In this document: positions 1,248 through 37,705 of the stretch, piece by piece
How the letters are laid out: each line of letters starts with the position of its first letter
How positions within the stretch are numbered: position 1 is the first letter of the stretch
Assembly (NCBI GenBank): GCA_963924555.1
Contig: OZ004590.1
Span: forward strand, 3,876,501-3,940,500
DNA length: 64,000 nucleotides
Origin: Crambe crambe
Lineage: Eukaryota; Porifera; Demospongiae; Poecilosclerida; Crambeidae
Reading direction: 5' to 3'
Notes under the pieces: model-generated
The model's input: only the letters and a program-made list of their open reading frames with translations
Told to the model about the DNA's origin: nothing
The model's database searches: none
Program-made: the position numbers and the translations under genes

Positions 1248-2337
1248 TATGTACCTGGAAGAGTTGAGTGCCTTTCCATCCATGGAGTGTTCCAATTCAC
1301 AAGCATAGAGATACCACTTGTCTGCCTGCACATTGGAATGAAACCACATGCTATGGTCCAGTGAAGTAATAAGACCAGGCTTGAATCTAGGGTAGAGTTT
1401 CATGACAAGCCTGGCTAGTGACATGTCAGAGGCATAGGCTATAGCTATCCGATGACAGTTCTGGTGATCAGATTCTCCATACGTTCCATTTCCTTTCATC
1501 CACAACGATATCCTACATGAAATCAATTTAACAGCCAACTGGCTAAAGGAGTGTTCCTTCATACAAGATTGATGCTTTAGCTATAGCAAAAATAGCCAAG
1601 CCAACTATTTTGCCTGAACTTACTTAGGTTCAGTTGGTTTTCTTGCAAGTTCCTTTCGAACTGCTTCACCATCTGTGCAGTAGAGTATTTCCAATGGCAG
1701 CATCTTTTCAGCCCAGCGATGTTTAGACAAAAGCAATAGCTTCTTAAAGTCTATGGTGAACTTATCACTATCTGGGAGTTCTGATATAACCTGTGATTTA
1801 TCTGGCTTTGGAACGACAGGCATTGGTTGACCATAAAAGTCCAGATCAGCTTTCACTTCTTCTGGTTTGTGGAAGGATGCTAAACAATGAAAACAAACCT
1901 TGCCATTCTGGATAGCTTGCACAAAAACCGAGCAGAAATTGTTTCCATCTTTCACTCGGTTGACTTTATAAGTCACATCAGGTGTCGTTTGCATTGGACC
2001 AACAAAATAGCAGTGATATGATTGGAGAAGGAATGAGCTATGGAATTCAGAAACGCAGTCAGCTGCAGCCATTAGTGCCTGGCCCATCACTTGGCCACCA
2101 AAAACAGCTCTCATTACTTTAGACATCCAAAGGTTCTTTCCCCTGTATTCCCTAGAGCCTAAAGCTACAATAAAACATAAGACCATTGGCCATGACTAAA
2201 AGGAGATTTGGTTTGCCATTGGCCAAATTATATTTGTTGAAGCTGTAGCTTTTAGTTCACATAGCTATTCTTGACTTACATTCGACCTCCATGAGTGATT
2301 TTAGCTGTGTAGGAGGCTTCTTGAAGTCTTTCTCCAT
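1227..2337 (-). CDS. ACOT8: ACOT8-like acyl-CoA thioesterase (TesB/thioesterase II family)
   Basis: Hydrolyses acyl-CoA to free fatty acid and CoA; the vertebrate orthologue is peroxisomal. Three exons can be joined in phase: 2280-2337 (MEKDFKKPPTQLKSLMEVE), 1624-2164 and 1255-1512. Exon 2 carries the family motif VFGGQVMGQALMAA, then LQSYHCYFV. Exon 3 carries SLDHSMWFH and DKWYLYACE, matching the second hot-dog domain. Phases agree at both junctions (T|CT and AA|G). Reading past the possible donor at 1255 gives a stop at 1227 (294 aa); splicing there would need a final exon I could not find. Human ACOT8 is 319 aa and ends with a longer tail, so the C-terminus is uncertain or truncated by the adjacent MITE. 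No PTS1 is visible in the read-through end. Confidence 0.85.
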
Positions 2338-9374: not shown

Positions 9375-10709
9375 ATGGCTCATTCTTGCATACTTTTGAA
9401 AGATGGAGATCGATTACGTCGTGGAACGCTGTTGCAGTTGCTGCATGACGATTCTTACTGCTGCCACACTCACACCTCAAATGCTGCGTTAAGTACAATA
9501 CGGTGCAGTACTAATGATGTGGCAGCATTGAGTAAGGAAGAGTGTGTGGTTCTGGATGGCATTGGCTCTGCTGCTAACCGCTACACCTTCTACAGCACTC
9601 CTGGGAAGCTGAAGTGGGGGAGTGGTCTCAAAGTGGGTGACACTGTGTTGGTACGAGTTTCGGTTATGAATAAACAGTGCTCTTCCACTGCCACACAGTA
9701 TAAGCTTGCAGTGGCCATCATAAGGTGGTGTGGTCAGACCGATATTTTCGGCCATAGATTTGGGGTGGAGATCACGGTTAGTTCTTTAAGTATTGATATA
9801 TGGATAACGCAGCTTGTCTGCTAAATACCACACAAACTATGGACCAGCTAATTAATTTTGATTGTGCAAACTTTTTGCCTTATTAGAGTGCATTAGAGTA
9901 GTAGCTATGTACATCACTGGAACTATAACAACAGTTTAATACAAGGCTACCAGTCAGATTGCCTGATAAGATACCTATTCGATGTTGATTGAAAATTAAA
10001 ATTGAGGATAGGATAATAGCCCGCCATTGATCAATTTCCTGTCAATTAGTACTACTGACTGTTCATTTTGTGGTTTGCTCTATAAACATGACAGGTCATG
10101 CATGCTGATCTGCACATGTTTACAGTTAGTCAATAATTGAGCCAGCCTACATCAATGATCACATGATATTCTCCTTGCTACATCCATAAATATATTCATC
10201 TGAAAATTCATAAAATTGATATTAAAAGGCTTTTTTACTGGTGGGCCAAAATGGGAGTGTAACAGGTCAAATGAAATTTGGTCTGACAAATTGGTTGGGC
10301 AAAAGAAAATCCTTGAAATGAATCATTATCTGACAAAAATTTATGGTACACTAGCAACTTTATGAATTGGGGGGGGGGGGGGGGGGGGGGGCACCACCAG
10401 TGATCACTAATACACCTTTAGATATAGATGAAGAAGACAAGAGTTTCTCTCTCCTTGATTGTGTTGAATTAATTTTAGACAATTATGTGCCTTATAGAAA
10501 AGGAGCAATAATAATATCTCGATATAGTTGCTGGTAGTTATCAAATTGATGTAGTACTCTCTAATGCACTTCACATTTTCGTATCAACTTGACAAATTTA
10601 ATTAGCTTTTGGATACTAACTATTGATGCTGACTATATTATCATTATCATCATCATTATTATTATTATTATCATTATTATTATTATTATTATCATTATTA
10701 TTATTATTA

Positions 10710-10779
<70 letters not shown>

Positions 10780-12228
10780 TATTTATTTATTTATTTATAA
10801 TTATTTATTTTTCGCTAGGAAAAGAAATTTCGTGGACTTGGAAACAGTGACGGACAATTTGGACATAAGAGATACTTCTCATGTGCAGACAATTGTGGTA
10901 TGTTTCTGGCACTCGATAAAATGGAACAACCTCCTGCTCTGGGCACGGGAACAACTGCTAATTCACAAGACCGCACCTTGCAGCTGGAGAGCGAGCTGAG
11001 AGAGAAGAATCAAGAAATTCACCAACTCAAGCTCCAGTTGACAAAAACAGAGAGAGAGGTGATTGGACTGCAAGGGGAAATTGATTCAGAGAGGGATACA
11101 GTGGCCAGACTGCAGAAGGAGGCAAAAGAGGAGAAGGAGAAAATGACCATACTGCTTGAGGCATTGGATAAGGAGAAGAGGAAAGTGATTGAGCTCTCTG
11201 GGGAAGTGGATGAAGAGAAAGAGACAGTCACTCGACTGAGGGAAGAGATGAGGATGAAGGTCCAAGAGTCGAATCGCCATACAGCGGAATTGCAGCAAAT
11301 GAGAGAAGAACACCGACACCAGCTCAGTGAGGAACGAGCTCTGAAACAGCGGCTTGAAGCTCGCATCGATAGAGCAATGGCAAATTTGAGAGGAGATGCT
11401 ATTAAAACAGACTTGCAAGGAGATGTAACAGCTTCTGAACCACTTGCTCTGTGGGAACTTCCTCGTGAAGATGTTCACATCTCACAGAAATTAATAGGGA
11501 CAGGTGGATGGGGCTATGTGGCCGAAGGTACCTTCCATGGCAAAACAGTTGCTGTGAAGTGTCTCCATCGAGCGATCCTCTCCCCGAAAAACGAGGGGAG
11601 GGTGAGACGTGAGATCAGTATCATGGCTCAAATCCGCCATCCCAACCTCCTTCTCCTCATTGGAGCAGTCTTAACCACAGAAAGAACAGGACCTTTGATT
11701 GTTACCGAACTCTTAGACAAGTCTTTACGTTCTGCCTATGAAGAGGGTTTGTTAGAGGAGAGATGTAAAGTTCCCATCTTGAAGGATGTGGCAACTGCTC
11801 TTGCCTACCTCCACTCTCACCGCACTCCCATCATCCACAGAGATGTCAGCAGTGCCAACGTCCTCTTGGAAGAAACAAAGCCAGCTCTTCAGTGGAAGGC
11901 TAAGCTTTCTGACTTTGGATCAGCCAATTTGAGTCATATTGCTTCTACCCCCTTTGAGGGGGCAGCTGTGTACTCTGCTCCTGAGGTGAACACAGAAGAC
12001 CGGAGCCGACAGACGCCCAGGATAGATGTATACAGCTATGGTGTACTGGTGTGTGAGGTGACTTTGTGTCGCTTCCCTCCTGATGCAAGCCAGTTCTCCT
12101 CCATGCTGAGAGACGTGCACCAGACAACTCCAAACATGTTCCCTCTAGCAAGAGACTGCACTAGCAAAGCCCACAAAGACAGGCCTTCAATGAAAGAAGT
12201 CTTGGAAAGACTCAATCTTGCAAGCTAG
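9375..12228 (+). CDS. CAP-Gly domain - coiled coil - protein kinase fusion (603 aa)
   Basis: Two exons, 9375-9776 and 10819-12228, join in phase 0 (ACG|GTTAGT donor, TTTTTCGCTAG acceptor). The join matters because it completes a CAP-Gly fold at about residues 86-165: VGDTVLV and AIIRWCG before the intron, GNSDG, KRYFSC and GMFLAL after it. The IRW-x-G pattern resembles the second and third CAP-Gly domains of CYLD. Residues about 188-320 form a Glu/Lys-rich coiled coil. The kinase domain follows (about 355-600): glycine loop GTGGWGYV, lysine AVKCL, catalytic HRDVSSANVLL, DFG, SAPEV. All core catalytic residues are present; the group is TKL-like, exact family unknown. An AATAAA at 12298-12303 may be the polyadenylation signal. 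Residues 1-80 are unrecognised. Pairing the domains is read directly; the CYLD link is by family resemblance. Confidence 0.85.
10367..10391. repeat. G homopolymer in the CAP-Gly kinase intron
   Basis: More than 20 consecutive G on the plus strand inside the only intron of the CAP-Gly kinase gene. Similar G tracts occur at 12521-12553 and 29397-29413. Confidence 0.9.
10636..10805. repeat. (ATT/ATC)n microsatellite just before exon 2
   Basis: About 170 bp of ATT units with interspersed ATC, ending about 15 bp before the 3' splice site of exon 2 of the CAP-Gly kinase gene. The T-rich end merges into the polypyrimidine tract. Long ORFs through it encode only isoleucine or leucine runs and are not genes. 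Confidence 0.95.
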
Positions 12229-12517
12229 AATTATGGCCAAACCAATTTTTTTTTCTTTTTTGTTTCTTTTTTTCAATGTGCTGTGTGTGAAAACCCAAAT
12301 AAAAACAGAGCTTTCTACTATCAGGGTTTCATCTAGGAATTTCACCTTGGAGGGGAAGTTCATGGAACATGTGGCTGTAAGGCCAAGGTGAGGGGGAGGG
12401 TGTGGGAGGGGGATATGCCCCCTCCTGCACAGAGCGTGAAGCCCAAAATGCTTAATCCTAAAATAATACTTAAAAGTATTTTTTGTCCTGAAATAGCTAC
12501 TTTCTTTTGGCAATATC

Positions 12518-12554
<37 letters not shown>

Positions 12555-12854
12555 AGTTGAACTGTTTGGAGGGGAAGCTTTCCCCTGCGTCCCCCTCCTT
12601 GCCTTAGATGAAACCCTGACTATAAACTTGGTCTGCTAAGCATAACTTGATTTGCATAGTGTATGCATCGTGAAATGCAGGGGAAGCTTTCCCCTGCGTC
12701 CCCCTCCTTGCCTTAGATGAAACCCTGACTATAAACTTGGTCTGCTAAGCATAACTTGATTTGCATAATGTATGCATCGTGAAATGCACATTTTAACTGG
12801 CACAGCAATTTTGATGAGGATTATAATTTGAGCCCCTCCCCTGGCGATATCTCG
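12229..12854. repeat. intergenic stretch with G tract and a 108-bp tandem duplication
   Basis: After the CAP-Gly kinase stop there is a likely poly(A) signal (12298), a G homopolymer of over 30 bases (12521-12553) and two consecutive near-identical copies of a ~108-bp unit (about 12571-12678 and 12679-12786) beginning GGGGAAGCTTTCCCCTGCG. No gene is seen. Confidence 0.8.
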
Positions 12855-13446
12855 CGCGCCCGCGATTTTTAAATTTGGGCTCAGTTTGGGGGTCAAAGGT
12901 CAACCAATTGTATGCGCATGCGCTAAGAACTTAGAAAAATTACCTGCCTGAAAAATAAAGTCTTGTCTCTGAGTCCATAGGCTACAGAATCGACTCTTCG
13001 CCACCTCCTTTCTCTGTTGCCAGTCTCAAAAAGCTTTAGATCCGAAGCAGAAGCTTGAAACTTGCAGTCAGCACTGGGGGGTAAAGGTCACTTTAACAAG
13101 TATCTCTGCTGACAACTGAGAGCTTCTACATCTGTTGATCATATGTAACGCTACTTTCTTTGCTTGTTTCTTGTTTTGCAAGCCTTCGGTTTGCAGTGTA
13201 CAACCATTCGTGACCTTTGACCCCAGTATGTGCTGACAGCGTTTGAAGTTTCTGCTTCGGATCTAAAATTTTCTGAGACTGGCAACAGAGAAAGAAGGTG
13301 GCGAAGAGTCAATCCTGTAGCTTATGGACTCAGAGACAAGAATTTATTTTCAGGCAGGAAATCTTTCCAAGTTCTTAGCGCATGCGCATACAATTGGTTG
13401 ACCTTTGACTCCCAGGCCAAACTGAGCCCAAATTAAAAAATCGCGC
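12855..13446. mobile_element. large foldback with ~200-bp inverted arms upstream of kinase-UBAN copy 1
   Basis: The left arm (about 12855-13065) reads GCGATTTTTAAATTTGGGCT..., TGCGCATGCGCTAAG, CTGCTTCGGATC complement. The right arm (about 13236-13446) is its inverted copy, ending 5 bp before the ATG at 13452. The copy-2 gene has no such arms: sequence matching the flanks TTTGAGCCCCTCCC and CTGAGAATGGCGAG is separated there by only about 70 bp of unrelated DNA. I infer insertion of a foldback/MITE that now supplies the 5' flank of copy 1. Confidence 0.7.
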
Positions 13447-13451
13447 TGAGA

Positions 13452-16400
13452 ATGGCGAGTGACGAGCTCGAGCCGTACATAATCGAGGGTCCTGTAGTAA
13501 TTTTTGCCGAGGAAGGTAGGGGATCTTATGGTATTCTGCATCGCATTTCACTGGATGGTGTAGAACGGATAGCTAAGCGTCCTCACCTGGCTTTCAGGGG
13601 TGACCAATGTGGTGGAGAAAAAGCTATTCGAGAAAAGTTCCATGCCGAATGCGTGACTCTGAGCAAGTTGAAGCATGCTAATCTTGTTCGCTTCATTGGT
13701 GTCTATTACGAACAGGAGAGCAATGATCTCGTTCTGGTCATGGAAAAATTGGATGCAGATCTAGCATCCTTTCTCGGGGAGCACAGTAATGTTTGTCTCT
13801 CTGTGAAGGTATCCATTTTGTACGATGTAGCTTGTGGATTGCTTTATCTTCATAGCAGAGACCCAGCTATCATCCATCGTGATCTTACTGCACCAAATAT
13901 TCTACTGACGTCAGATTTGCAGGCCAAAATAGCTGATTTTGGTGTCTCTCGATTGTGTAACTTGAGTGCTACTGTAAATCTTACTCGAGTTCCAGGAACC
14001 TTCTACTACATGCCACCAGAAGCACGTATGGAAGATCCTAAATATGACACCAGTCTTGATATTTTTTCCTTTGGTCATTTGACCTTGCATACTATAATTC
14101 AGCATTACCCAGAAGTTTTCGATACTCAACCAAACATTGAAGTCCAGCGTCGTAAAAGAAGTCTACAGTTGGTGAAGAATTCACATCCTTCATACTCAAT
14201 AATGATCAAATGTTTGCAAGACGAACCTTCAAGTAGACCTTCAACAGAAGAACTTTATCAGGAACTCATTACAGTCAGGAGCGAGCACCCTCGAACATTA
14301 TCCCACATCTTACAATCTTTAAGCAAGGTGAGTAGTATTATCATTGCAAGTAGTTGAGCTGTATAACTTCATGGAGTAAATTCCTGACTATTTTCATTAT
14401 ACTTGATAGGTTGAAATTGAAGATTTTGAGAAGCTGAAAACAGATTTGGAAATGGCAAGAGCTGATATGATACCTCAATGAGGAATCTGTTATTGCTAAC
14501 TTTAACACGGTAGCTATTCCAATAATCTATTCTAGACAAAAAGCAAGAGCTTGAAATGTTAAGGGGCGATTTACAAGCAGCCATGATTGCAGTAAGTATT
14601 CAGTATTTTGAAAACTAGAAAATTATATTATGACCTATTATGACCATTGTACATTGTACTATAGGATCAGGTCCATGTTAAAGACTTTCAAACTGAAAGA
14701 AGTGACAGAGAAAAAATCCATTCCAAGTACTTTGATTTGAAGGAGCGCAGCTGCCAATTGGAGGCAAATTTGGCATTTGAAATTAAAAATAAGAAAAGAA
14801 TAGAGGGTGAAAATATGTCATTACATCGGAGGTTGGCAAAGTCGAGAGATACCATTAATTCCCAACAGAAGATTTCCCAAGGGTATAGAGAGAGAGTTGA
14901 TAAATTGGAGCAGGAACTGAAAGAGGAAACTGTGAGGTGTATGAATCTTGAGAAAGAAAATAAGCAACTAAGAATTCGGGTAAGGAATTGCCTAATCGTA
15001 TTTATTGTGCACAGGCCAAGTAAAATATATTTGGCATCCCCGAGCCTGGTATTTGCATCCCCTGTCGCACCCCCTCAGGGAATAATTTATTATGGAATCC
15101 CCAATTCTTTGTACTTTGTAATAGCATGATGAGAGCACTATACTTAGGCGGAAGGTGGGAACTTGTTATTATCCAGACAGTCACTAAGTTTAAAATCAGA
15201 AGGTATGCAGCAGAGAATGGCAATGTTAATAGCTACTGAACTAAGTTCAGTAGGCTGTAGTATGCCTGGGAGTACTGGCAATTTCAAGCAAGCTCTGTCA
15301 GGCATGTGCTTTCCTAATGCAGTTATTCAAATGGCAAGAATACAATGGTGAAGTAGCTACAGAAAATATAAAGCAAGGTAGTGTCCTTAAGGCTAATGAC
15401 TGACATTGACTGTAAATGTTGTGTTTCTGGCCAATATACATTGAAGATAAAAGATAGTCTCGCATGGGCTAGACTCTCAGAGCATGACCCAAGGCACTGA
15501 GCATTGATGCAACTCCTAATCAAGTATAATTATCAAGTAGCTACATGCATGACATCAGTAAAGGCCTTAAAAATTGTACAAAATTATGGTCAATGACAAT
15601 CTTCACAAACGATGGTTATCTCTCATCTAAGCATGTTTTAAAGGTGTTATCATGTAATGAGATGGTGAAGGAGGATGACGGCACATACTAAGTGGCTTGC
15701 ACTGGTGTGAGACTGCAGTATTGCAGTACCACCAATGCAGTATATAAGGTGGATTGGAGAGAGCTGGTTCCTGGGTGCCTGGTGGCTCATTCGGTTGGGT
15801 CCTGTGGCTATGACGGCTAAAGTCAGATGCTGCGGGTTCAAACTCAGCTGGTGGGTTGCGGGGTCACTTGGGTTGCCAGTTTTTCTTCAATCCTCCTTCA
15901 CCATCTCATTACATGATAACACCTTTTAAAAAATGACAATCTTATTACTATAGATACGAACTCCATCAGCATTTATTCTTCCAGATCAGACTCATAAAAT
16001 ATGATGAAACCTCTGATGAACTGCATAGCTACAATACATGTTTGGGATGAACTTTAACTTGGATAGGAGGATCACAGCATCTACAATAGTTACATATCTC
16101 TGAGACTATTCTAGTTACATGCACCATGTTTTCATTTTATTAAATCTGCATTACATCAAAAAAGGTGATGAACAAGTACGCAAATAGGGATGGTATTGCA
16201 GGGCCTACCCCTCCTAATTTCAATAACCATACCCATAATATCCAACTACTACTTCACTTCCCATAAGAGCACTCATGGAGAGCGAAGTAGGGATAGAGTA
16301 GTTGGGTAATATGGGTGTGGTTATTGAAATTACGTAGGAAGGGTAGGCCCTCTAGGCTCTTGTTCATGAACTTTTTGAGTTTACACACAGCAATCCCTAC

Positions 16401-18489
16401 TTGCCTATTTTAATCAATATCTTTTCCTTTACTATTCTAGCTATTAATCATGATCAATATGACTGCATGTGATCATGATTGCGATAGCCACCTGAATATT
16501 CACTATAAAAGTGAAAGTGTTTACTGCACACCATTTTGTCCCAAATGGAAGTGTTTACTGCACACCATTTTGTTCCAAATGGAAGTGTTTAGTGCACACA
16601 ATTTTGTCCCAATACACACAGTTTTGTTTTTAGTGTGTGCGTGTGTATTGAGTGTGGAGCAAGTAGATACACTTTCATCTTTACAGTGCTTGTGGCTTAA
16701 CTTTTCTTTTAAAGATGGGGTTGCTTCAATGTCAGCTATCAAACTTTGTACATGTACATGAATGTGAGACTTCATGTTCAGATGTACGGGGGTTCCAAAA
16801 ACCCTGAGCTGTACCCTAGGGCCAGGGGGTGCCAAATCCACTAGAGTATTTTACTCAGGGATTCCATATTTCTAGGGATGCCAGATTCCCTGTGACACTG
16901 GTATATAAGTTTCCTTGCCAGTAAGTTTGCTTTTAGCCTCTGTTTACGATAATAAACAGTGGTTTTAGAATGGGTGAGATAACTTTCATTACCACAGTTA
17001 TGTAAACCAAATTGTATCTTTGTACATTGTGTTTTGCCATGAATTTCACCTATTGATCCCTCGGGAGTATGGGCAAGGTATGAGCTACAACAGTAAAAAA
17101 TATCAGTTTTGAAGCTTTGAATTCTTTTGGCAGCAAAATCAAGGGTATATAGGTGAAGCATAAAGAAGTTATGGGCTGGCACTCTGGCCAGCTTGGGTAA
17201 AGGTCAGCTCATGTTGCTGGCACTCTGGCTGGCTTGGATAAGGGTCATATCACACTACATCAATGGTTGAATTCTTTGGCTGGTGGTACTGAAGAATAGA
17301 GTGCCTCTTGTAAAAGCAGACAAGTATTATTGCTACTGCAGTAATGTTGTTGTTTTTTTCATTTTGCTACAGGAATTCAAGGAGAGAACGACTTTGATAA
17401 AAATTACCGAAGAACGGAATAAACTGAAGGAGAAAGACCTCGGTACTATGTTCAACAGGAGAAAACGACATTCCACTGATGATGATGATGATGATGGCAA
17501 GGAAAAAGTAAGTGTTAATAGCCAGGAGGAAATCATTTTATTGTGTGCTTTAATAGCTACACACATAAAATTATACAGCAAGCCTTTAGACCTTAGTAGA
17601 GAGAGTGACCCTATCAATCCATCCCCTATACTCAATATAGGGTGAATTGATGGAAGGAAAATACACTGTCTCTGATTTTTTTTTGCTCTTTTTTTGCTTT
17701 ATGTTCGTTCAGCCATTAATTTTGAGTCAGAGTCTTTTAGCTGGTTGTTCAGAGTAGTGTAGAGAGATCTCCACTACACGTTATCGGTGTTGCTATTATT
17801 TTTTTCTTATGCAGTTAATTGAGGGCTTGCAACGTGAAATCGAGCAGCTTAGGGAAATCATAATGAAGAAAAATGAGATAAAATTTGAAGCTGTTGAAAA
17901 GGTAACCCCTACACCACTGGTGTACTGTGTTAGACATGGTTACTACATTCCACACAAGTCAATTAGTTAGCAGCTTCTTGTTCACTATCCAGCAGCCCAG
18001 AAATATTTTAGTCAAAGATAAATTTATGCTGCCAGACACTAATACCAGTAGCTATACTGTGACCAATTGTAAGGGGTGGTAGGAGAGGACTGGAGATTGA
18101 GGAAGCTCTTTATATGACTTGAATTATTTGAGTGTAATAGCATCTAAGGGAAATGGCTAAGTATGACCAATTTCTGTTGACTGGACCAACTTTTGTTATA
18201 GAGTGCTGATGATGAGTCATCTCCCCGTCCAAGATCATACACAGTCTGCACACCTTTTCAATCCAGCTCTGGTGACAAAGGGTCCCACAGCAGAGAGAGG
18301 GTCACAGTACATGCTGCACCCTCTGGTGCCTCCATCCTACCACATGCTCAATTAAGTCATGACACTCAGCTCACTGAAACATTTCCTGGTACGACAAGGA
18401 GAGTGTGGAAAGCAGTGGACTCAGAATATAAGGATTCATGTAGTCTTGACTCACCCATTCATGACCACGTTGACACAAAAAAATTATAG
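13452..18489 (+). CDS. protein kinase - UBAN coiled-coil gene, copy 1 (tail disabled)
   Basis: Exon 1 (13452-14327) encodes an intact 292-aa kinase: glycine loop GRGSYG, lysine in IAKRPH, HRDLTAPNILL, IADFGVSRL, MPPEAR in place of APE. Further exons match copy 2: 14410 onward, 14536-14591, 14665-14979, 17373-17507, 17815-17901 and 18202-18489. The fourth holds the UBAN-like core VKDFQTERSDREK, then heptad-rich helix; the fifth has a run of six Asp. Two lesions separate kinase from tail. Exon 2 has lost its donor and runs into TGA at 14479-14481 (predicted 315 aa). Exon 3 is 56 instead of 57 nt (five instead of six A), so skipping exon 2 would still shift the frame. The tail could persist only by unusual splicing. 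Kinase and coiled-coil exons are otherwise open, so the lesions look recent. Confidence 0.8.
15638..15932 (+). mobile_element. MITE with ~42-bp inverted ends enclosing a tRNA-like Pol III promoter
   Basis: The ends are inverted copies: left TTTAAAGGTGTTATCATGTA..., right ...TACATGATAACACCTTTTAA, continuing through a GAGATGGTGAAGGAGGAT segment. Inside, TGGCTCATTCGG (about 15783) fits tRNA box A and GGGTTCAAACTC (about 15834) fits box B, about 50 bp apart as in tRNA-derived SINEs. The combination suggests a SINE carried in, or giving rise to, an inverted-repeat element. Confidence 0.6.
16140..16400. mobile_element. foldback element
   Basis: Inverted arms of at least 75 bp around about 16272: AGGGCCTACCC...CAATAACCATACCCA on the left and its complement ending GGGTAGGCCCT on the right. 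Shorter complementary pieces continue outward (TGAACAAG / CTTGTTCA). Confidence 0.7.
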
Positions 18490-18770
18490 ACCTGGAAAAA
18501 GGTCGTCTATACCATAAATGAGTTAGTAACACGTGACCGCACTAAGAGTCGTTCGTTTCATTTACGGCGATCCCTTACTAAACCTTAGATGATGTCAAGA
18601 ATTAAGGTATTAGATACTTAATATCGCTCTGTACCGAACTTCTGCCATGCCTACTACAGTAGAAACAGGTCAGCACCGAAAAAAGTAAGTTGATACAAAA
18701 GAGAACAGGGGTTTAACAATTGATTCTAAATATCGCACACCCAACTAGATTGGAGTGCAATTTTAGACAG
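18490..18770 (+). pseudogene. orphan duplicate of PAF1 promoter and first exon
   Basis: The sequence after the copy-1 stop is nearly identical to the 24577-24850 segment upstream of PAF1. It includes an E-box CACGTG (18530-18535), the ATG at 18647, a 38-nt exon (18647-18684) and a GTAAGT donor. Identity stops at about CACACCCAACTAG, exactly where PAF1 exon 2 begins in the other copy. No PAF1 exon 2 follows, so this is a promoter plus first exon without a gene. Confidence 0.8.
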
Positions 18771-19588
18771 TTTCAAATGCAATTACCCAAATTGCACAAA
18801 AAAGCCTATTAATCATATGTATCAGCGCCAGCTGCATGTAGGAAGCTGTTTGTTTACCACATGCACAACGGACTTACAGTGGCAGAGCGACTGGTCAGGT
18901 TAGTCAGGTTTCAACCTGACCACTTTTTTCACTCCAAACGTAATTGAATCTTCTAAAGCCAAAACTTTTCTGGGTGGTATGACCCAGACCCACCTGGCGT
19001 GCTATGCAGTCACAATAAATACCTGACCATTTCATTTTTTGTCACTCCGCCCCTGTGACAAAACATTTACTTCAGTCTTGTTGTGGCCTACTAGACCAGC
19101 AATCCACTTAGATGAGCCTAGTGCCTACAATTCACCCTGAAAAAAATGCTGTAGAAATCAATCAAGCTTGCCTACAATCTTCAGAAATGTCGTTACTAGG
19201 TTAGTCTGCACATGTGCAATTGGTAGGAGTGAAATGTACTAGATACTTAATATCGCTGCTAGATATTATGTGTTTTCTGAGCAATGGCTGAGAAGTAGCT
19301 AGTAAGGAAATTTATTTTTTTTTGGCTACAGGAATTCAGATGAGGAGTAATATCTTGCAGCAGGGGGACAATGATCTTAGCCATTATTTGGAGTAGAGAG
19401 GCTGTTGCTTCATGTCAATAATTATTAGGAATAACATTCCGTTCCATTTAATTTAATTGCTGTAGAGAGTCTGGCCACATTTCAGAGTCTTCAGGTTTCA
19501 CTACATGTTCCAGTACTGTAGCTAACAATCATAATTGTTTCTCCCTTGTTATTTCCATCATTGACTAGACTGACTTTTATTATACATA
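18771..19588. other. intergenic spacer
   Basis: No gene is recognised. A short fragment around 19236-19260 (AGATACTTAATATCGCT) repeats a piece of the PAF1 upstream region, so part of the spacer is duplicated debris. Confidence 0.5.
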
Positions 19589-19917
19589 TAGAGTACTGAT
19601 GATGATGAAAAGGAGTCTTCATCTCTCTGTTTAAGAGCATGCACAGCATTACGGCGCCTTTATTAAGGTTGAATTAATCCAGTTCTGGGTCCCACTGCAG
19701 AGAGAGGGTCACAGTACATGCTACACCCTCTGGTGCCTCCACCCTACCACGTGCTCAATTAAGTCATGACACTCAGTTCACTGGACAAGAAATACCTGGT
19801 ATGACAAGGAGAGTGTGGAAAGCAGTGGACTCAGAATATAAGGATTCATGTCTATATAGTCCTGACTCACCCATTCATGACCACAATAATCATTGATGCA
19901 CACACAAAATTATAGAA
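19589..19917 (+). pseudogene. relic of the last kinase-UBAN exon (third copy)
   Basis: A 3' splice site (ATATAG) is followed by AGTACTGATGATG..., then a close match to the final exon of copies 1 and 2 through GGGTCCCACTGCAGAGAGAGG, CACCCTCTGGTGCCTCC and GTGTGGAAAGCAGTGGACTC. Insertions and deletions, such as the Thr-Ala-Leu-Arg region after 19640, break the frame. No kinase or UBAN exons of this copy remain. Confidence 0.75.
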
Positions 19918-20283
19918 GCCTTTCCATTGGTGACGATGAACTTGCCACACTGGATTTTTGTCATTGTCATTTTGTTATTGTACAGTGTAAGCTTACCTTG
20001 TGGTTTAACACTTCAGGGCTATTTACCACAGAGAAGGAGGCTAGCTGGAGGTCCAGTCCCAAGTGTTTATTACATGTTATTACAGTCCGTGGCCCATCTG
20101 GCATGCTTAATAATGGGAAATAAGAGATGTGTAGGTCAGGAAGACCTCTTAATGAGATCCATTGAGCAACCTGATTGGTCAATTATTAAAAAAGAAAGCA
20201 TGCTTACCTACTTTGGTGATCAATAACATAGACCCACGTTCGCCCACTGGAATGGAGTAGTGATGAAAGGGCATTACAACAGT

Positions 20284-20446
20284 ATGAAAGACCATAAATA
20301 AGTTATGTGACCGCACCAGAGCTAACAGACACCCAAGATAGATGCACACAGCTAGTGTGTGCTGGCGTGCTATTCTCCTCCATGCTGAGAGATGTGCACC
20401 AGACAACTCTAAACATGTTACGAGACTGTACTAGCCAAGCCCACCA
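20284..20446 (+). pseudogene. relic of PAF1 promoter fragment and CAP-Gly kinase C-terminus
   Basis: First a piece like the PAF1 upstream region (ACCATAAATAAGTTATGTGACCGCAC), then segments matching the CAP-Gly kinase 3' end at about 12008-12170 (CAGACACCCAAGATAGATG, CTCCTCCATGCTGAGAGA, CACCAGACAACTCTAAACATG). Internal deletions remove the frame. It sits directly upstream of kinase-UBAN copy 2, the same order as the intact CAP-Gly gene upstream of copy 1. Confidence 0.75.
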
Positions 20447-20547
20447 AGCATGCAATGAGTTTGAGCCCCTCCCCCTGCCTGTGTCGTAGCCAGACCCTTT
20501 ACCAACTCAAGGAGGTCGTAGGGGTCAAAAGTGAGTGCCAGCTGAGA

Positions 20548-23500
20548 ATGGCGAGTGATAATGAGCTTGAGCCGTACATAATCGAGGGTCCTGTAGAAGT
20601 TTTTGCCGAGGAAGGTAGGGGATCTTATGGTATTCTGCACCGCATTTCACTGGATGGTGTAGAACGGATAGCTAAGCGTCCTCACCGGGTCTTCAGGGGT
20701 GACCAATGCGGTGGAGAAAAAGCTATTCGAGAAAAGTTTCGAGCTGAATGTGTGACTCTGAGCAAGTTGAAGCATGCTAATCTTGTTTGCTTCATTGGTG
20801 TCTATTACGAACAGGAGAGAAGTGATCTCGTTCTGGTCATGGAAAAATTGGATGCAGATCTAGCATCCTTTCTCGGGGAGCACAGTAATGTTTGTCTCTC
20901 TGTGAAGGTATCCATTTTGCACGATGTAGCTTGTGGATTACTCTATCTTCATAGCAGAGAGCCAGCTATCATCCATCGTGATCTTACTGCGCCAAATATT
21001 CTACTGACGTCAGATTTGCAGGCCAAAATAGCTGATTTCGGTGTCTCTCGATTGTGTAATTTGAGTGCTACCATAAATCTTACTCGAGTTCCAGGAACCT
21101 TCTACTACATGCCACCAGAAGCACGTATGGAAGATCCTAAATATGACACCAGTCTTGATATTTTTTCCTTTGGTCATTTGACCTTGCATACTATAATTCA
21201 ATGTTACCCGGAAGTTTTCGATACTCAACCAAACATTGAAGTCCAGCGTCGTAAAAGAAGTCTACAGTTGGTGAAGAATTCACATCCTTTATACCCAATA
21301 ATGATCAAATGTTTGCAAGACGAACCTTCAAGTAGACCTTCAACGGAAGAACTTTATCAGGAACTCATTAAAGTCAGGAGTGAGCATCCTCGAACATTAT
21401 CCCACATTTTACAATCTTTAAGCAGGGTGGGTGAATATTATATCATTGCAAATATCTAGTTGGGCTGAAATGGACCCCTAGCTCACTCTCATAGTCTATA
21501 GTTATAGCTAACCCTTCCCAGTGTGAACTCCTGACCTTCACTCCTCTCCCTATTAAGACACTTAATTTTGCAGCCCAGAGGTGGTTACTGTAGGCTTATT
21601 TTTACTGTATCTAAAAGTGTGTTTTTATATAGGTTGAAGATGCTATTTTGAAGAAAGATTTTGAGAAACTGCAAACAGATTTGGAAATGGCAAGAGCTGA
21701 TATTGAGGTAGGCATCATGAGGCGGAATCGTTATTGCTAACTTTAACAACATGATTCCAATAGACAAAAAAGCAAGAGCTGGAAATGCTAAGGGGTGATT
21801 TACGAGCAGCAAAGATTGCAGTAAGTATTCAGTGTTTATTTAGCTATAATAGCTTAAGCAGGTCACCTCTCTGTGACACAGCCAGGGGTCCCAGTTCCAA
21901 GAGGGCTTTCAGTGTAGCAGGCCACCTCTTTATAATTGTTGGCTTGAGGGTGACCACTATAACCAGGTTCCACTGTAATACTATAGGATCAAATCCATGT
22001 TAAGGACTTTCAAAGTGAAAGAAGCGACAGAGAAGAAATCCATTCCAAGTATGCTGATTTGAAAGAGCGCAACTACCGATTAGAGGCAAATTTGGCATTT
22101 GAAATTGAAGATAAGAAAAGAGTGGAGGATAAAAATATGGCATTACATCAAAGTTTGACGGAGTCGAGAGATGCCATTAACACCCAACAGAAGATTGCCC
22201 AAGAGTATAGCGAGAGAGTCGATAAATTGGAACAGGAACTGAAAGAGGAAACTGTGAGGTGTAAGAATCTTGAGAAAGAAAATAAGCAACTAAGAATTCG
22301 GGTAAGGAATTGCCTATTATATTAATAAAGTATGACACAGGACATTTTCTGGCCATTTTATCTGGTGCCTTTGTGTGATCAAATTTGTATTAGTAGCTAT
22401 GGGATTAGGGTTAGCATCAGGCACTATGTCCGCACAATATATTTTGAATAAGAGTGCACATTAACAATTTGAAATCTGAAATAATACCTAATATAGAAGC
22501 CCTGCTTTTTTCCACCTGTGAAAAAAATTGGGATGCTCTATGATGACGACTATGTTTTTGCAGACCTCTAAGCTGGCCTCTGTTTATGATATTAAGATAA
22601 AGGATACCATAGAGTGGGTGAAGTGTCATCCTGCAGCATAGTTGTGTAAACCAGTCAAAACCTCAAACCACAATCTGTACAGCTAGACTGCCTAGCTAAC
22701 TTGGTCTTAGCCTCATCCCGCTGCGCAAGAGCCTGGGGACAAGGCTAACTTGGTCTACATAAAGCTAGTGTGTGTGCCATTAAAAAGAGCAAATTTTTTG
22801 GTTGCCTAACTTAAGCAGCCATCACAAATTACTCACAATGAGTCTCTCTATTATCTATGATTAGACTGGCACAGCAAAGAAAAAGAAAATTATTTGTTTG
22901 TGTTTTTCAATTTTGGCAAAAGGAACCTTGCAGTAATCTTGCAACATGAAATTCAATTCAGAACGCCAAACCAAAATTTACATATGTATCTTCCTTTAAT
23001 TAAGTAGCCCAACTCCAAAGTCATGCGGTTAGTCCATTGTTATGTAGGTTAGGTGTTCTGAATTTGATGTTGCAAGACTGCCATGAATTTCTTCATGTAG
23101 CTATTCATCCCTAACCATCAGGAGTTTTGGGCAAGGTAGCTATGAGAAAAAGCTTTGAATTCCTTTGGCAGGGGTAGTGGTGACTCGAATATTATGAATA
23201 TCAGCAGCATTATGGCAGACAACTCACTTGCAATGGACAGTTATATCTATAGCCAAAGACCTTTGGTAGTCGGGGGAATGTTTGGAGAGATAGGTGGATA
23301 CACAATAGCTGTTATTAATTATGACAACCAACCTGCAGTGGAGTGGATTCAGTGGAGCTAGTAAATAGAGATTAAATTCAGCTAGGACACATGTGGTTCA
23401 TGCTTCAGAAAAAAATGTCTCTAAAGATGACTGATCAAGTGGTTCTATTTTGTAATTGCTGATTGTGACTCTTTTTAATTAATGCCCAATCAAGTATTTT

Positions 23501-24576
23501 TTATTTTTTTTTCACTGTTGCTGGCACTCTGGCCAGCTTGGGTAAGGGTTATATCATACTATGTCGATGGCTGGCTGGTAGTAGTAAGAATAGAGTGCCT
23601 CATATAAAAACAGATGAGCATTATATTGCTACTACAGTAATGCATTTTTTAAAATAGGAATTGAAGGAGAGAACGAGTTTGATAAAAATCACTGAAGAAC
23701 GGAATAAACTGAAGGAGAAAGACCTTGGTACTAAGTTCTACAGGAGAAAACGACATTACACTGATGATGATGATGATGATGATGGCAAAGAAAAAGTAAG
23801 TGTTAATAGCCAGGAGGAAATTGTATTTTAGTTGACACAAAAATAGGCTCAAAATTTTATAATAAAGTATTCCCCATAAAATTATACAGCAAGCCTTTGG
23901 ACCTTAGTGCAGAGGTCAGTGTTGTTATTAATTTATTCTTATGCAGTTGATTGAGGGCTTGCAACGTGAAATCGAGCAGCTTAGGAAAACCAATAAGAAT
24001 TTTCTGGCTATAATGAAGAAAAATGAGATAAAATTTGAAGCTGTTGAAAAGGTAACCTGGTGTAGACATGATCTTGACATTACTACATTTCACACAAGTC
24101 GATTAGTTCAGCAGCCCAGAAATATTTTGGCCAAAGATACTTGTATATAAATTTATGCTGCCAGACACTAATACCAGTAGCTATATTGTGTCCAATTCAC
24201 TTGATTGTAAGGGGTGGTAGGAGAGGACTGGAGATGGAGGAAGCTCTTTACACGACTTGAATTATTGAGTATAATAGCTTGTTATTATCTAAGGGAAATG
24301 GCCAATTTCTGGTAACATCTTTGACTGGACTAACTTTTATTATAGAGTGCTGATGATGAGTCATCTCCCCGTCCAAGATCATACACAGTCATTACACCTA
24401 TTCGATCCAGCTCTGGTGACAAAGGGTCCCACAGCAGAGAGGCCGCACCCTCTGGTGCCTCCACCCTACCACGTGCTCAATCAAGTCATGACACTCAGCT
24501 AACTGGACAAGAAACACCTCCTGGTATGACAAGGAGAGTGTGGAAAGCAGTGGACTCGGATTCATATAGTCAATGA
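20548..24576 (+). CDS. protein kinase - UBAN coiled-coil protein, copy 2 (intact, 599 aa)
   Basis: Seven exons join in phase: 20548-21426 (kinase, 293 aa), 21633-21707, 21764-21820, 21987-22301, 23658-23795, 23947-24051 and 24346-24576. The kinase has GRGSYG, IAKRPH, HRDLTAPNILL, IADFGVSRL and MPPEAR, so it should be active; HRDLT without the usual lysine is TKL/LISK-like. Exon 4 starts with IHVKDFQSERSDREE, matching the D-F-x-x-E-R-x-x-R-E core of the UBAN/CC2-LZ motif in NEMO, ABIN and optineurin, which binds Met1-linked ubiquitin. Long heptads follow (KLEQELKEETVRCKNLEKEN), then a seven-Asp acidic patch and a Ser-rich tail ending SDSYSQ. MASDNELEPYI is preferred as the start because it aligns with copy 1. 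Ubiquitin binding is an inference from the motif. Confidence 0.85.
21848..21985. mobile_element. MITE fragment in intron 3 of copy 2
   Basis: It contains the family repeats GGTCACCTCTCTGTGACA and GGCCACCTCTTTATAA and ends ACCAGGTTCCACTGTA, about 10 bp before exon 4. The element is absent from the matching intron of copy 1, so it inserted after the duplication or was lost there. Confidence 0.6.
22302..23657. other. large intron 4 of copy 2
   Basis: No exon recognised. It shares pieces with intron 4 of copy 1, for example the TCCTTTGGCAG/GCTGGCACTCTGGCCAGCTTGGGTAAGGG stretch near 23510-23560 just before exon 5, but the SINE-like element and foldback of copy 1 are missing. Confidence 0.5.
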
Positions 24577-35576: not shown

Positions 35577-35907
35577 TGTAATGGATTGATGGGTTAGTTT
35601 GTGCAATCATTTTCATTAATTAATTACTTTTGTGCTGTGTGTGCTTTTTGTTGAGACAGGCTTTTTCTTGTTTCTAGATTTGTCATTTGTGCATTATGTA
35701 ATGGGATAGTGGTTATTGGTTTTGTGCATATCTTTTCCTGTTTTACTTGGTTGTGCGTGTTTTTTCTTGTTTTAGTCCTTTTTGTATAAATAGGAGCTTA
35801 GTTGAACTGGATAGTTAGTTGAGAATTTGTGCTCTAGTCAGTGTCGTTTGTTATTCTATCAATTAAAATTTAATATACTTGCAAACTCCCGCTCCGGGTC
35901 CTCTACA
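35577..35907 (+). repeat. 5' LTR
   Basis: It runs from TGTAATGGATTG to GGGTCCTCTACA. A TATAAATA box at about 35785-35792 should drive the element's transcript. It appears identical to the 3' LTR. Confidence 0.95.
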
Positions 35908-35909
35908 TT

Positions 35910-35927
35910 TGGTGGCAGCGGTGGGAT
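35910..35927 (+). promoter_or_regulatory. primer-binding site, complementary to tRNA-Leu
   Basis: TGGTGGCAGCGGTGGGAT starts 2 bp after the 5' LTR. It is complementary to the 3' end (…ATCCCACCGCTGCCACCA) known for metazoan tRNA-Leu of the AAG/TAG type, from memory of those tRNAs. Confidence 0.8.
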
Positions 35928-35942
35928 CCAACTGTCTCTTGT

Positions 35943-36863
35943 TTGAAGATAGGACACACGTACATGACTACAAGATCTGGACGAACGTACAGGAGAGCAA
36001 GTCCCGAGAATATCAGTATGACGGAATCGGAATCGGTGGATACAGCTAGTTCAGCAGGAGATATGGTTAAGGTACTCATGGCCGATCGAGAACGACGGGA
36101 AGAACAGATGCAACGATTGATGGACCTACTGGAAGCCTCCGTCGGGCGAGACCGAACTGCACCTCTTGCTGCCGCACCGACGACCGTTACAGTGACGGAA
36201 AAAGTGAAAGTCGCTAAGCTGACTGATCAGGATGACATTGAAGCCTATTTAACCACTTTTGAAAGGCTGATGGAAGCGTATAGCGTAGAAAGGAGAAAAT
36301 GGGCATGCCAACTTGCTCCTCAGCTGTCAGGTCGAGCACAGAAAGCTTATGCTGCCCTACCCTCCGCCGAAGCCAATGACTACGAACAATTGAAGAAGGC
36401 TATACTCAAACGGTACGACATAAATGAGGAGACATATCGTCAGCGTTTTAGAAGCACCAGAAAGAAGAGTGACGAGTCACACCGAGAACTGGTGGTGAGG
36501 CTACAAGACCTACAGCAAAAATGGATGCAAAAGTACTCTACAGTGGAGCAGATTGGAGATGTCATCGTCATGGAGCAGTTTCTCAACTCACTGACCCCGG
36601 ATCTTCGAGTGTGGATCCGAGAAAGGAAACCAGAGACAACATCGGAAGCTGGAGAGCTGGCAGATCAGTACGAACAAGCCAGGAAGTCAACACTGGGAGT
36701 AGGCTCAGGCAACTCCAAGGAGGGAGTTCAGAGGAGGGATCACAAGAAGGACGCTACCAGGAGTGAGACAAGAGGTGTCACGCCTGTGGACGAGAAGGCC
36801 ATCTGGCTCGCAATTGCAGCATCAGGAGAGATGGGGAGAGCCAACCAAAGGAAAACCGTCTAA
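35943..36863 (+). CDS. gag: Gag with SCAN-like capsid domain
   Basis: A 306-aa open frame. Residues about 95-245 have the SCAN/retroviral CA-CTD-like pattern: DIEAYLTTFERLMEAY, WACQLAPQLSGRAQKAY, QRFRSTRKKSDESHRELV, FLNSLTPDLRVWIRERKP. SCAN domains of vertebrate zinc-finger proteins are thought to come from Gmr1-like Gag, which fits the gene order of this element. The CCHC knuckle is not in this frame but in the -1 frame just after the stop, so a -1 frameshift is needed to join it. I see no canonical slippery heptamer in the overlap. Confidence 0.85.
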   Translation: MKIGHTYMTTRSGRTYRRASPENISMTESESVDTASSAGDMVKVLMADRERREEQMQRLMDLLEASVGRDRTAPLAAAPTTVTVTEKVKVAKLTDQDDIEAYLTTFERLMEAYSVERRKWACQLAPQLSGRAQKAYAALPSAEANDYEQLKKAILKRYDINEETYRQRFRSTRKKSDESHRELVVRLQDLQQKWMQKYSTVEQIGDVIVMEQFLNSLTPDLRVWIRERKPETTSEAGELADQYEQARKSTLGVGSGNSKEGVQRRDHKKDATRSETRGVTPVDEKAIWLAIAASGEMGRANQRKTV

Positions 36864-37702
36864 AGGAACCAGTTATTCCAAAGAAGGAGAAGGGAGACAG
36901 AGTTGTCAAGTGTTACAACTGTGGCAAGACTGGTCATATTGCTACAAATTGCCTTAGTAATGCTCTTTTTTGCAGTAACAGTGCTGAAGACTGGTCTACA
37001 CAGAGCGGAGTGATTGAGGGGACAGCAGTACCTGACATTGTACTGGACACTGGATGCTCTAGGACAATGGTGAGGCAGGATCTAGTTGCAGAGGAGAAGC
37101 TACTGGAGGGAGAAGCTGTCACAATCAGATGCGCTCATGGAGATATGGACCTCTACCCGTTAGCTAAGGTGGAGATGGAGCTAAATGGAACGAGGATTGA
37201 GACTATAGCCGCAGTTTCAGATCACCTACATGTATCAGCTTTGTTGGGGACTGATGTTCCAGAGTTGATCCAGTTGCTGGGTACGGCTGCTAAAAATAGT
37301 AACATTGGGAAAATTGAAGAAGCCATGGTGATAACCAGAGCACAAGCCAGGAGGAAGGAGGATGAAGAGGCCACTCAGAGATCCAAGGAAGAGGAGTCTG
37401 GAGTGCAAGCTAATCCCCTTATAGAGCAGACAAGAGAAGAGATAACAGACTGTCCAGATCAACCAAGTGTTGGGTCAGAAGGGGAGATGCTGGGCAGTAA
37501 TTTATCTGATGATTTATTCCATCCAGGTCGATCCAGAGAGAAGAAGACCAGGAGAGAGAAAAGACAGGAAAGACACAAGCATGGACTGGTGAGGGCCAAA
37601 GACCAGCCAAGGCGACAAGCCTCCTTCAACAATCCCGATAAGGTGACCAAAGATGACCTTCAACGAATGCAGAAGGAGGATCCAACCCTAGCTGTGGTAT
37701 GA
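36842..37702 (+). CDS. CCHC zinc knuckle and aspartic protease, -1 frame
   Basis: Open in frame -1 relative to Gag. CYNCGKTGHIATNC (36911-36952) is a CX2CX4HX4C knuckle. The protease active site DTGCSRTMV lies at about 37047-37073, with a distal hydrophobic LLGTDVPEL in place of the usual LLG/ILG motif. The C-terminal third is a charged linker that ends at TGA 37700-37702. The frame continues without shift into the integrase ORF after the TGA. Confidence 0.85.
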   Translation, partial: QPKENRLKEPVIPKKEKGDRVVKCYNCGKTGHIATNCLSNALFCSNSAEDWSTQSGVIEGTAVPDIVLDTGCSRTMVRQDLVAEEKLLEGEAVTIRCAHGDMDLYPLAKVEMELNGTRIETIAAVSDHLHVSALLGTDVPELIQLLGTAAKNSNIGKIEEAMVITRAQARRKEDEEATQRSKEEESGVQANPLIEQTREEITDCPDQPSVGSEGEMLGSNLSDDLFHPGRSREKKTRREKRQERHKHGLVRAKDQPRRQASFNNPDKVTKDDLQRMQKEDPTLAVV

Positions 37703-37705
37703 GAG

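Follow-up and report, generated by a model that had tools for sequence, protein, structure and literature searches.

TKL kinases with a CYLD-type N-terminus or a UBAN-like coiled coil predicted in the genome of the sponge Crambe crambe

Three neighbouring genes in the genome of the sponge Crambe crambe raise the question of whether a protein kinase can carry, within its own polypeptide chain, ubiquitin-pathway modules that other animals distribute over separate immune-signalling proteins. The genes, here termed A, B and C, lie on contig OZ004590.1 (GCA_963924555.1), positions 3,876,501 to 3,940,500 of the forward strand, a stretch of 64,000 nucleotides that was analysed as a whole and is referred to as the window. 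A first-pass annotation of this stretch held that gene A joins a CAP-Gly domain, a coiled coil and a kinase, and that genes B and C join a kinase to a coiled coil with the core of the UBAN motif. Judging from the predicted proteins, gene A is a TKL kinase that begins with an abridged CYLD N-terminus, made up of the N-terminal region and CAP-Gly1. In gene C a TKL kinase is followed by a NEMO/ABIN-type UBAN coiled coil, and the same holds for gene B provided that exons 2 and 3 are skipped. The explanation of the whole that we favour, and regard as moderately probable, is that these are two TKL families with ubiquitin-pathway modules in cis, ubiquitin chains activating the UBAN kinases; such kinases may sense ubiquitin chains directly.

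Gene C (20548-24576) comprises seven exons with GT-AG borders, all in phase 0 and all with lengths that are multiples of three, which together encode 599 residues:

20548..21426, + strand: gene C exon 1, TKL kinase of 293 residues with P-loop, Lys, HRD and DFG (PF07714 at 20551-21420, E 1.2e-35)
21633..21707, + strand: gene C exon 2, coiled coil (GT-AG, phase 0)
21764..21820, + strand: gene C exon 3, coiled coil (GT-AG, phase 0)
21987..22301, + strand: gene C exon 4, coiled coil with the UBAN core DFQSERSDRE (Pfam, PDB, alignment and profile)
23658..23795, + strand: gene C exon 5 (seven-exon model)
23947..24051, + strand: gene C exon 6 (seven-exon model)
24346..24576, + strand: gene C exon 7, with the stop and no zinc finger (seven-exon model)

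Gene B (13452-18489) is a tandem copy of gene C in which exons 1, 4, 5, 6 and 7 are intact:

13452..14327, + strand: gene B exon 1, TKL kinase of 292 residues (PF07714, E 2.3e-36)
14410..14481, + strand: gene B exon 2 remnant, lacking a donor and with an in-frame stop (comparison with exon 2 of gene C)
14536..14591, + strand: gene B exon 3 remnant of 56 nt, frame lost (57 nt in gene C; comparison with gene C)
14665..14979, + strand: gene B exon 4, coiled coil with the UBAN core DFQTERSDRE (Pfam, alignment and profile)
17373..17507, + strand: gene B exon 5 (gene B model)
17815..17901, + strand: gene B exon 6 (gene B model)
18202..18489, + strand: gene B exon 7, with the stop (gene B model)

The annotated union of kinase and UBAN-core coil was recovered in full for gene C; for gene B it holds only when exons 2 and 3 are skipped, in which case exon 1 is in phase with exon 4 and an in-frame product of 566 residues results. 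No zinc finger was found in the model of either gene. The two copies share 95% protein identity in kinase exon 1 and 78% in exon 4. The P-loop and DFG motifs were located by script in the kinases of genes A, B and C, as was the Lys in B and C, while the HRD of all three and the Lys of A were assigned by eye; with these motifs and with TKL kinases as nearest relatives, all three predicted kinases belong to the TKL group, and the best PDB match of the TKL-like gene C kinase is CTR1. Directly upstream of gene B lies a large inverted repeat (12887-13414), with arms of 110 and 68 nt that are 91 and 94% complementary.

The best Pfam family for exon 4 was PF16516 (CC2-LZ), with 20.7 bits in gene C and 20.9 bits in gene B (E 5-6e-4). 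When a 44-residue core query, composed of 4 residues from exon 3 and 40 from exon 4 and chosen once the motif was known, was compared with the PDB, all eight matches at E<=10 were UBAN proteins, with ABIN1 the best (E 0.0046). We also built a UBAN profile from ABIN1, ABIN2 and two other UBAN exons of the genome (loci L034 and L035), two of its four members being own-genome exons, and left the window sequences out. This profile assigned 29.7 and 28.3 bits to the window exons, compared with 9.2 bits for the next non-UBAN sequence among 8411 targets, which had been picked as related to these genes and are not a random sample, and 12.9 bits for the best of 5000 shuffles, none of which reached the window-exon scores. 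Only the profile members and the L035 copy in locus L005 outscored the window exons; the L035 motif occurs once more at C1:342 kb. Within the UBAN core, D-F-x-x-E-R-x-x-R-E, the residues D, F, E, R, R and E were invariant in six of six aligned sequences, those of B and C included. At exon level, B, C, L034 and L035 share the same upstream border, which follows an AG and precedes the Asp-Phe by exactly six codons. The core also spaces its Asp and Glu as optineurin D474 and E478, residues that an excerpt of PMC4999505 links to linear-ubiquitin recognition and describes as needed for NF-kB suppression. Sequence comparison thus indicates that the UBAN likeness of exon 4 in B and C is more than chance.

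Several points nevertheless weigh against the explanation that we favour, and the first of them concern this assignment. The PF16516 scores lie under the curated cut-off of 35.3, and exon 4 of B and C is therefore described here as UBAN-like and not filed as a member of the family. A genome-wide PF16516 scan (143 Mb, E<=0.001) did not find the window exons and matched two other places, L034 and L035, which score 21.2 and 21.9 bits, likewise under the cut-off, and lie in coil-rich regions, with a C2HC finger downstream in L035. With the whole 105-residue exon 4 as query, none of the four PDB matches at E<=1 was a UBAN protein, and ubiquitin binding by the B/C coil is a prediction drawn from the sequence match. 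The UBAN likeness might then be a coincidence between coiled coils, the coil merely dimerising the kinase: other coiled-coil families score close by, with Rootletin next in Pfam at E 0.003, and the match spans only about 35-40 residues of a query cut after the motif had been sighted. The distance of the window-free profile scores from both the next non-UBAN target and the best shuffle argues otherwise, as do the six conserved core residues, the shared exon start and the presence of the UBAN core in the damaged copy B as well, and we consider such a coincidence quite unlikely. The search for UBAN in exon 4 proposed in the first-pass annotation gave a divided answer, with a PF16516 match that stays below the cut-off and a clearly positive result for the UBAN-based profile.

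A second point is that the models of genes A, B and C are predictions from genomic sequence alone. The kinase exon could be a short gene of its own, with the coiled-coil exons belonging to a different transcript. Past its donor, exon 1 remains open for 9 codons in B and 10 in C before a stop, making a kinase-only product possible; gene B has no in-frame splicing through exons 2 and 3; and the joining of kinase and coil in gene C is itself read from the genomic model. Set against this, the seven phase-0 GT-AG exons of gene C are free of stops, the order of kinase and then UBAN coil is kept in both B and C, and the closest related kinases, those on C1, are likewise followed directly by coil-rich frames (unspliced) on the same strand. 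Separate neighbouring genes are an unlikely explanation in our view.

The homology could also be real and the function lost, with B a pseudogene, C heading there, and both relics of a large kinase expansion in the genome. Exons 2 and 3 of gene B are broken, and Ka/Ks between B and C is 1.16 in exon 7, which shows no sign of constraint and also weighs against the explanation that we favour, and only moderate in exon 4 (0.47); exons 5 and 6 gave 0.28 and 0.42, from small counts. Of 445 candidates, 134 were scored against the gene C kinase and all 134 matched at E<=1e-12, pointing to a large, fast-changing family. Gene C, however, is intact, its catalytic motifs are present and kinase exon 1 has a Ka/Ks of 0.25; we give loss of function a low probability.

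The distribution of the fusion is a further point on the same side. Among the matches listed for the window kinases (120 of 884 and 120 of 1823), none of the 240 relatives combined a kinase with a UBAN motif, the best UBAN-profile score being 5.8 bits, and no C2HC finger was found in them; a homolog search with the gene C coil returned none of 824 candidates at E<=10. Given the absence of the combination from the 240 relatives and of the coil from the 824 candidates, the kinase-UBAN fusion may be confined to the two copies of the window, one of them damaged. The named relatives of the window kinases come from Halichondria panicea, Ephydatia muelleri and Geodia barretti.

Gene A consists of two exons whose GT-AG, phase-0 junction (9375-9776 to 10819-12228) is in frame and yields a protein of 603 residues:

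9375..9776, + strand: gene A exon 1, encoding an N-terminal region of the CYLD type and the first CAP-Gly half (GT donor, phase 0)
10819..12228, + strand: gene A exon 2, encoding the second CAP-Gly half, followed by a coiled coil, the TKL kinase and the stop (PF01302, PF00069)

The spliced protein matched PF01302 with 44.2 bits (E 1.8e-11; Pfam cut-off 26.5) and a Pfam kinase domain at E 3.3e-35, which bears out both the annotated joining of CAP-Gly, coiled coil and kinase and the profile check suggested for it, the CAP-Gly being of the CYLD type. Exon 2 is a single open frame of 469 residues that spans the latter half of the CAP-Gly as well as the coil and kinase, so that this part of the fusion is independent of splicing. 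Among 20 PDB matches of the CAP-Gly at E<=10, the best was CYLD 1whl (36.5 bits, E 4.4e-8), identified as CAP-Gly1 of CYLD in an excerpt of PMC8511506, and the runner-up was CLIP-115 with 27.3 bits. Residues 16-169 align with the N-terminus and CAP-Gly1 of a CYLD from the same genome (31% identity over 157 positions, E 2e-22), and a phase-0 intron inside CAP-Gly1 occupies the identical place in gene A and in the CYLD gene on C21. A CAP-Gly of the CLIP/dynactin type was considered for gene A and rejected, CYLD 1whl being ahead of CLIP-115 by 9 bits and the N-terminus matching CYLD. Pfam found no CAP-Gly2, CAP-Gly3 or USP in the gene A model, which has a single CAP-Gly; lacking these domains, gene A is not a CYLD. 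The assembly may be weak at 10369-10391, about 10640-10790 and 12520-12553, where poly-G runs and one long trinucleotide stretch occur in the intron of gene A and beyond the gene.

Exon 1 of gene A is matched at 15 genomic places at E<=0.001, namely in the window, at nine places on C6 (8.12-8.23 Mb), in two pieces at C6:6.47 Mb and, weakly, at three places on C21; A-type kinases are also present at the C6 loci L019-L024. Part of a CAP-Gly was found in the kinase frame of 32 of the 120 gene A relatives among the matches listed (884 in total; phmmer E<=0.01 with 240 proteins searched), mostly as its last 25 residues and in two relatives only at E 0.009. These relatives may include genes of the same species from other assemblies, and one of them, P0002, groups with the C6 genes in the tree. 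Two relatives are labelled 'ubiquitin thioesterase CYLD' by their source, and no CAP-Gly was found in their frames at the same threshold. On sequence grounds, then, gene A is a member of a family and its CAP-Gly is CYLD-derived.

A different joining of CYLD and kinase is found at C21:5.014-5.054 Mb, where three tandem copies each carry, in order, a CYLD N-terminus, CAP-Gly1, CAP-Gly2, a TKL kinase, CAP-Gly3 and USP pieces. A spliced model was made for the third copy only; its 12 GT-AG exons run in frame from Met to stop and encode 1266 residues, with a Pfam kinase match at E 4.1e-38 and a USP match to 2vhf at E 1.1e-49. Pfam at E<=0.01 reported two CAP-Gly stretches in this protein and found no UCH, and the USP call accordingly rests on the match to the CYLD structure 2vhf. 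The first copy has an extra CAP-Gly3-like domain before the kinase, its second half lying in the kinase exon, that matches CYLD CAP-Gly3 structures at E 6e-15. In the Cys box aligned with 2vhf, the third copy reads NSSCLD where human CYLD reads NSCYLD, the Cys of which we take to be the catalytic cysteine. All three kinase-bearing copies (L031, L028 and L029) have NSSCLD, with Ser at the catalytic-Cys position, whereas NSCYLD, with the Cys kept, is found in both CYLD genes that have no internal kinase match (L025 and L026); a kinase match lies at C21:3737582, just beyond L026. Among the kinase-bearing copies, Ka/Ks is 0.20-0.22 in the kinase, 0.33-0.45 in USP exon 6, 0.25-0.34 in exon 11 and 0.60-0.91 in exon 12 (few changes in both of the latter), 0.27-0.90 in the first half of CAP-Gly3 and 0.90-1.41 in the N-terminus. 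These values suggest constraint on the kinase and on part of the USP, and fast evolution of the N-terminus.

In the kinase tree, the deeper forks of which are weak, A-type, C21-type and B/C kinases fall into different well-supported groups, with the C1 kinases in a 24-row group shared with B/C. The closest kinases to the window kinase are those at C1:385807 (48%) and C1:407382 (46%), and the C21 kinase is 36% identical to the gene C kinase as against 28% to the gene A kinase. To the points against the favoured explanation must be added that a weak fork (89/63, where long branches meet) places the A-type and C21-type kinases together on the same side, and that the two CYLD-kinase joins may share an origin. 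Under the favoured explanation, this genome would have seen at least two fusions of kinases with such modules, one with the CYLD part and one with the UBAN coil.

The region C1:365-408 kb (L035, L042 and L049) forms a cluster of its own, in which a gene for a UBAN coiled coil lies together with six C2HC finger places and with kinase loci that have coil-rich frames downstream. In both L049 and L042, same-strand coil-rich open frames lie downstream of the kinase, and in L049 two C2HC fingers follow it (all unspliced frames); the second C1 kinase locus has a same-strand finger at C1:405182-405286. All six finger matches at E<=1 fall at C1:365-405 kb, and L035 contains one. The finger had only two PDB matches at E<=10, both weak, to DNA polymerase kappa (0.0057) and TAX1BP1 (0.046), which are known for ubiquitin-binding fingers.

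How might such kinases work? The UBAN coil would dimerise and bind Met1-linked (or Lys63) ubiquitin chains, and coils bound to a chain would gather the kinase domains for trans-phosphorylation and for action on nearby targets. A single chain would then do the job of the split subunits IKK and NEMO, or TBK1 and optineurin. For gene A, the CYLD-type N-terminus and the coil would more likely serve to dimerise the kinase and to place it on the cytoskeleton or a CYLD partner than to bind ubiquitin. A wider reading, which we put forward only tentatively, is that readers and erasers of Met1/Lys63 ubiquitin have been wired onto kinases repeatedly in this genome, so that chains switch kinases directly, without a separate IKK-NEMO complex. 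It would embrace the UBAN kinase of the window, the C2HC-finger-adjacent kinases of C1, the kinases with a short CYLD N-terminus in the window and on C6, and the kinase-bearing CYLD; in the last of these the kinase would sit in the linker that IKK phosphorylates in human CYLD, and the USP that has lost its Cys would be a ubiquitin-reading scaffold.

One proposal of the first-pass annotation, that the non-kinase halves of A and of B/C pair as CYLD and NEMO do, found no support. As an excerpt of PMC8511506 reports, it is CAP-Gly3 of human CYLD that binds NEMO, the demonstration having used the NEMO zinc finger, and for CAP-Gly1 of human CYLD no ubiquitin binding was detectable. Since that contact is made by CAP-Gly3 and the zinc finger, whereas gene A has a CAP-Gly1-like domain and B/C have no zinc finger, we rejected binding of NEMO/UBAN by the gene A CAP-Gly in the manner of CYLD, both the CAP-Gly and the NEMO region being the wrong ones by that account. 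If such a pair exists, the finger-bearing C1 locus and the CAP-Gly3-bearing CYLD kinases of C21 would be better candidates.

The annotation's statement that no kinase with a UBAN motif in cis had been described agrees with our search, as none appears among the open-access literature matches listed, where there is likewise no sponge UBAN or CYLD kinase and no CYLD with a kinase; descriptions elsewhere are possible. By uniting the parts in a single polypeptide, genes of this kind supply natural 'Rosetta stone' evidence of a functional link, and the way in which a UBAN may activate a kinase could be studied on one chain. The fusions suggest rewiring of immune pathways by domain fusion in an early-branching animal lineage, and the kinase-bearing CYLD with a substituted catalytic cysteine, if truly so, would be a rare visible switch between enzyme activities.

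Elsewhere in the window, three further features were noted:

1623..2195, - strand: acyl-CoA thioesterase N-terminal domain
35874..40378: retrotransposon-like frames, with a SCAN domain in the gag-like frame and an integrase ahead of the reverse transcriptase in the pol-like frame, an order that we take to be that of Gmr1-type elements
48268..48678, + strand: fibronectin type III domain

Compared with known systems, the window kinases resemble sponge TKL kinases, with members from Halichondria panicea, Ephydatia muelleri and Geodia barretti among the matches, and differ from them in that no member with a UBAN or CYLD module is described among the literature matches listed. Shared with CYLD are the N-terminal region and CAP-Gly1 of gene A and the order CAP-Gly1, CAP-Gly2, CAP-Gly3 and USP on C21, while gene A departs from it in lacking CAP-Gly2, CAP-Gly3 and the USP. 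NEMO, ABIN1, ABIN2 and optineurin are adaptors without a kinase domain; the coiled coil of B/C shares with them all six invariant residues of the UBAN core, ABIN1 being the best PDB match of the core query, but it follows a kinase in the same chain and has no zinc finger. The C-terminal zinc finger of NEMO and optineurin, absent from B/C, has a counterpart in the finger of L035 and of the C1 kinase locus L049. As in IKK-NEMO and TBK1-optineurin, a UBAN coil would, in B/C, bring a kinase to linear or Lys63 chains; in known animals these systems are built from two polypeptides, whereas here a single chain is predicted, with a TKL-like kinase whose closest PDB relative is CTR1.

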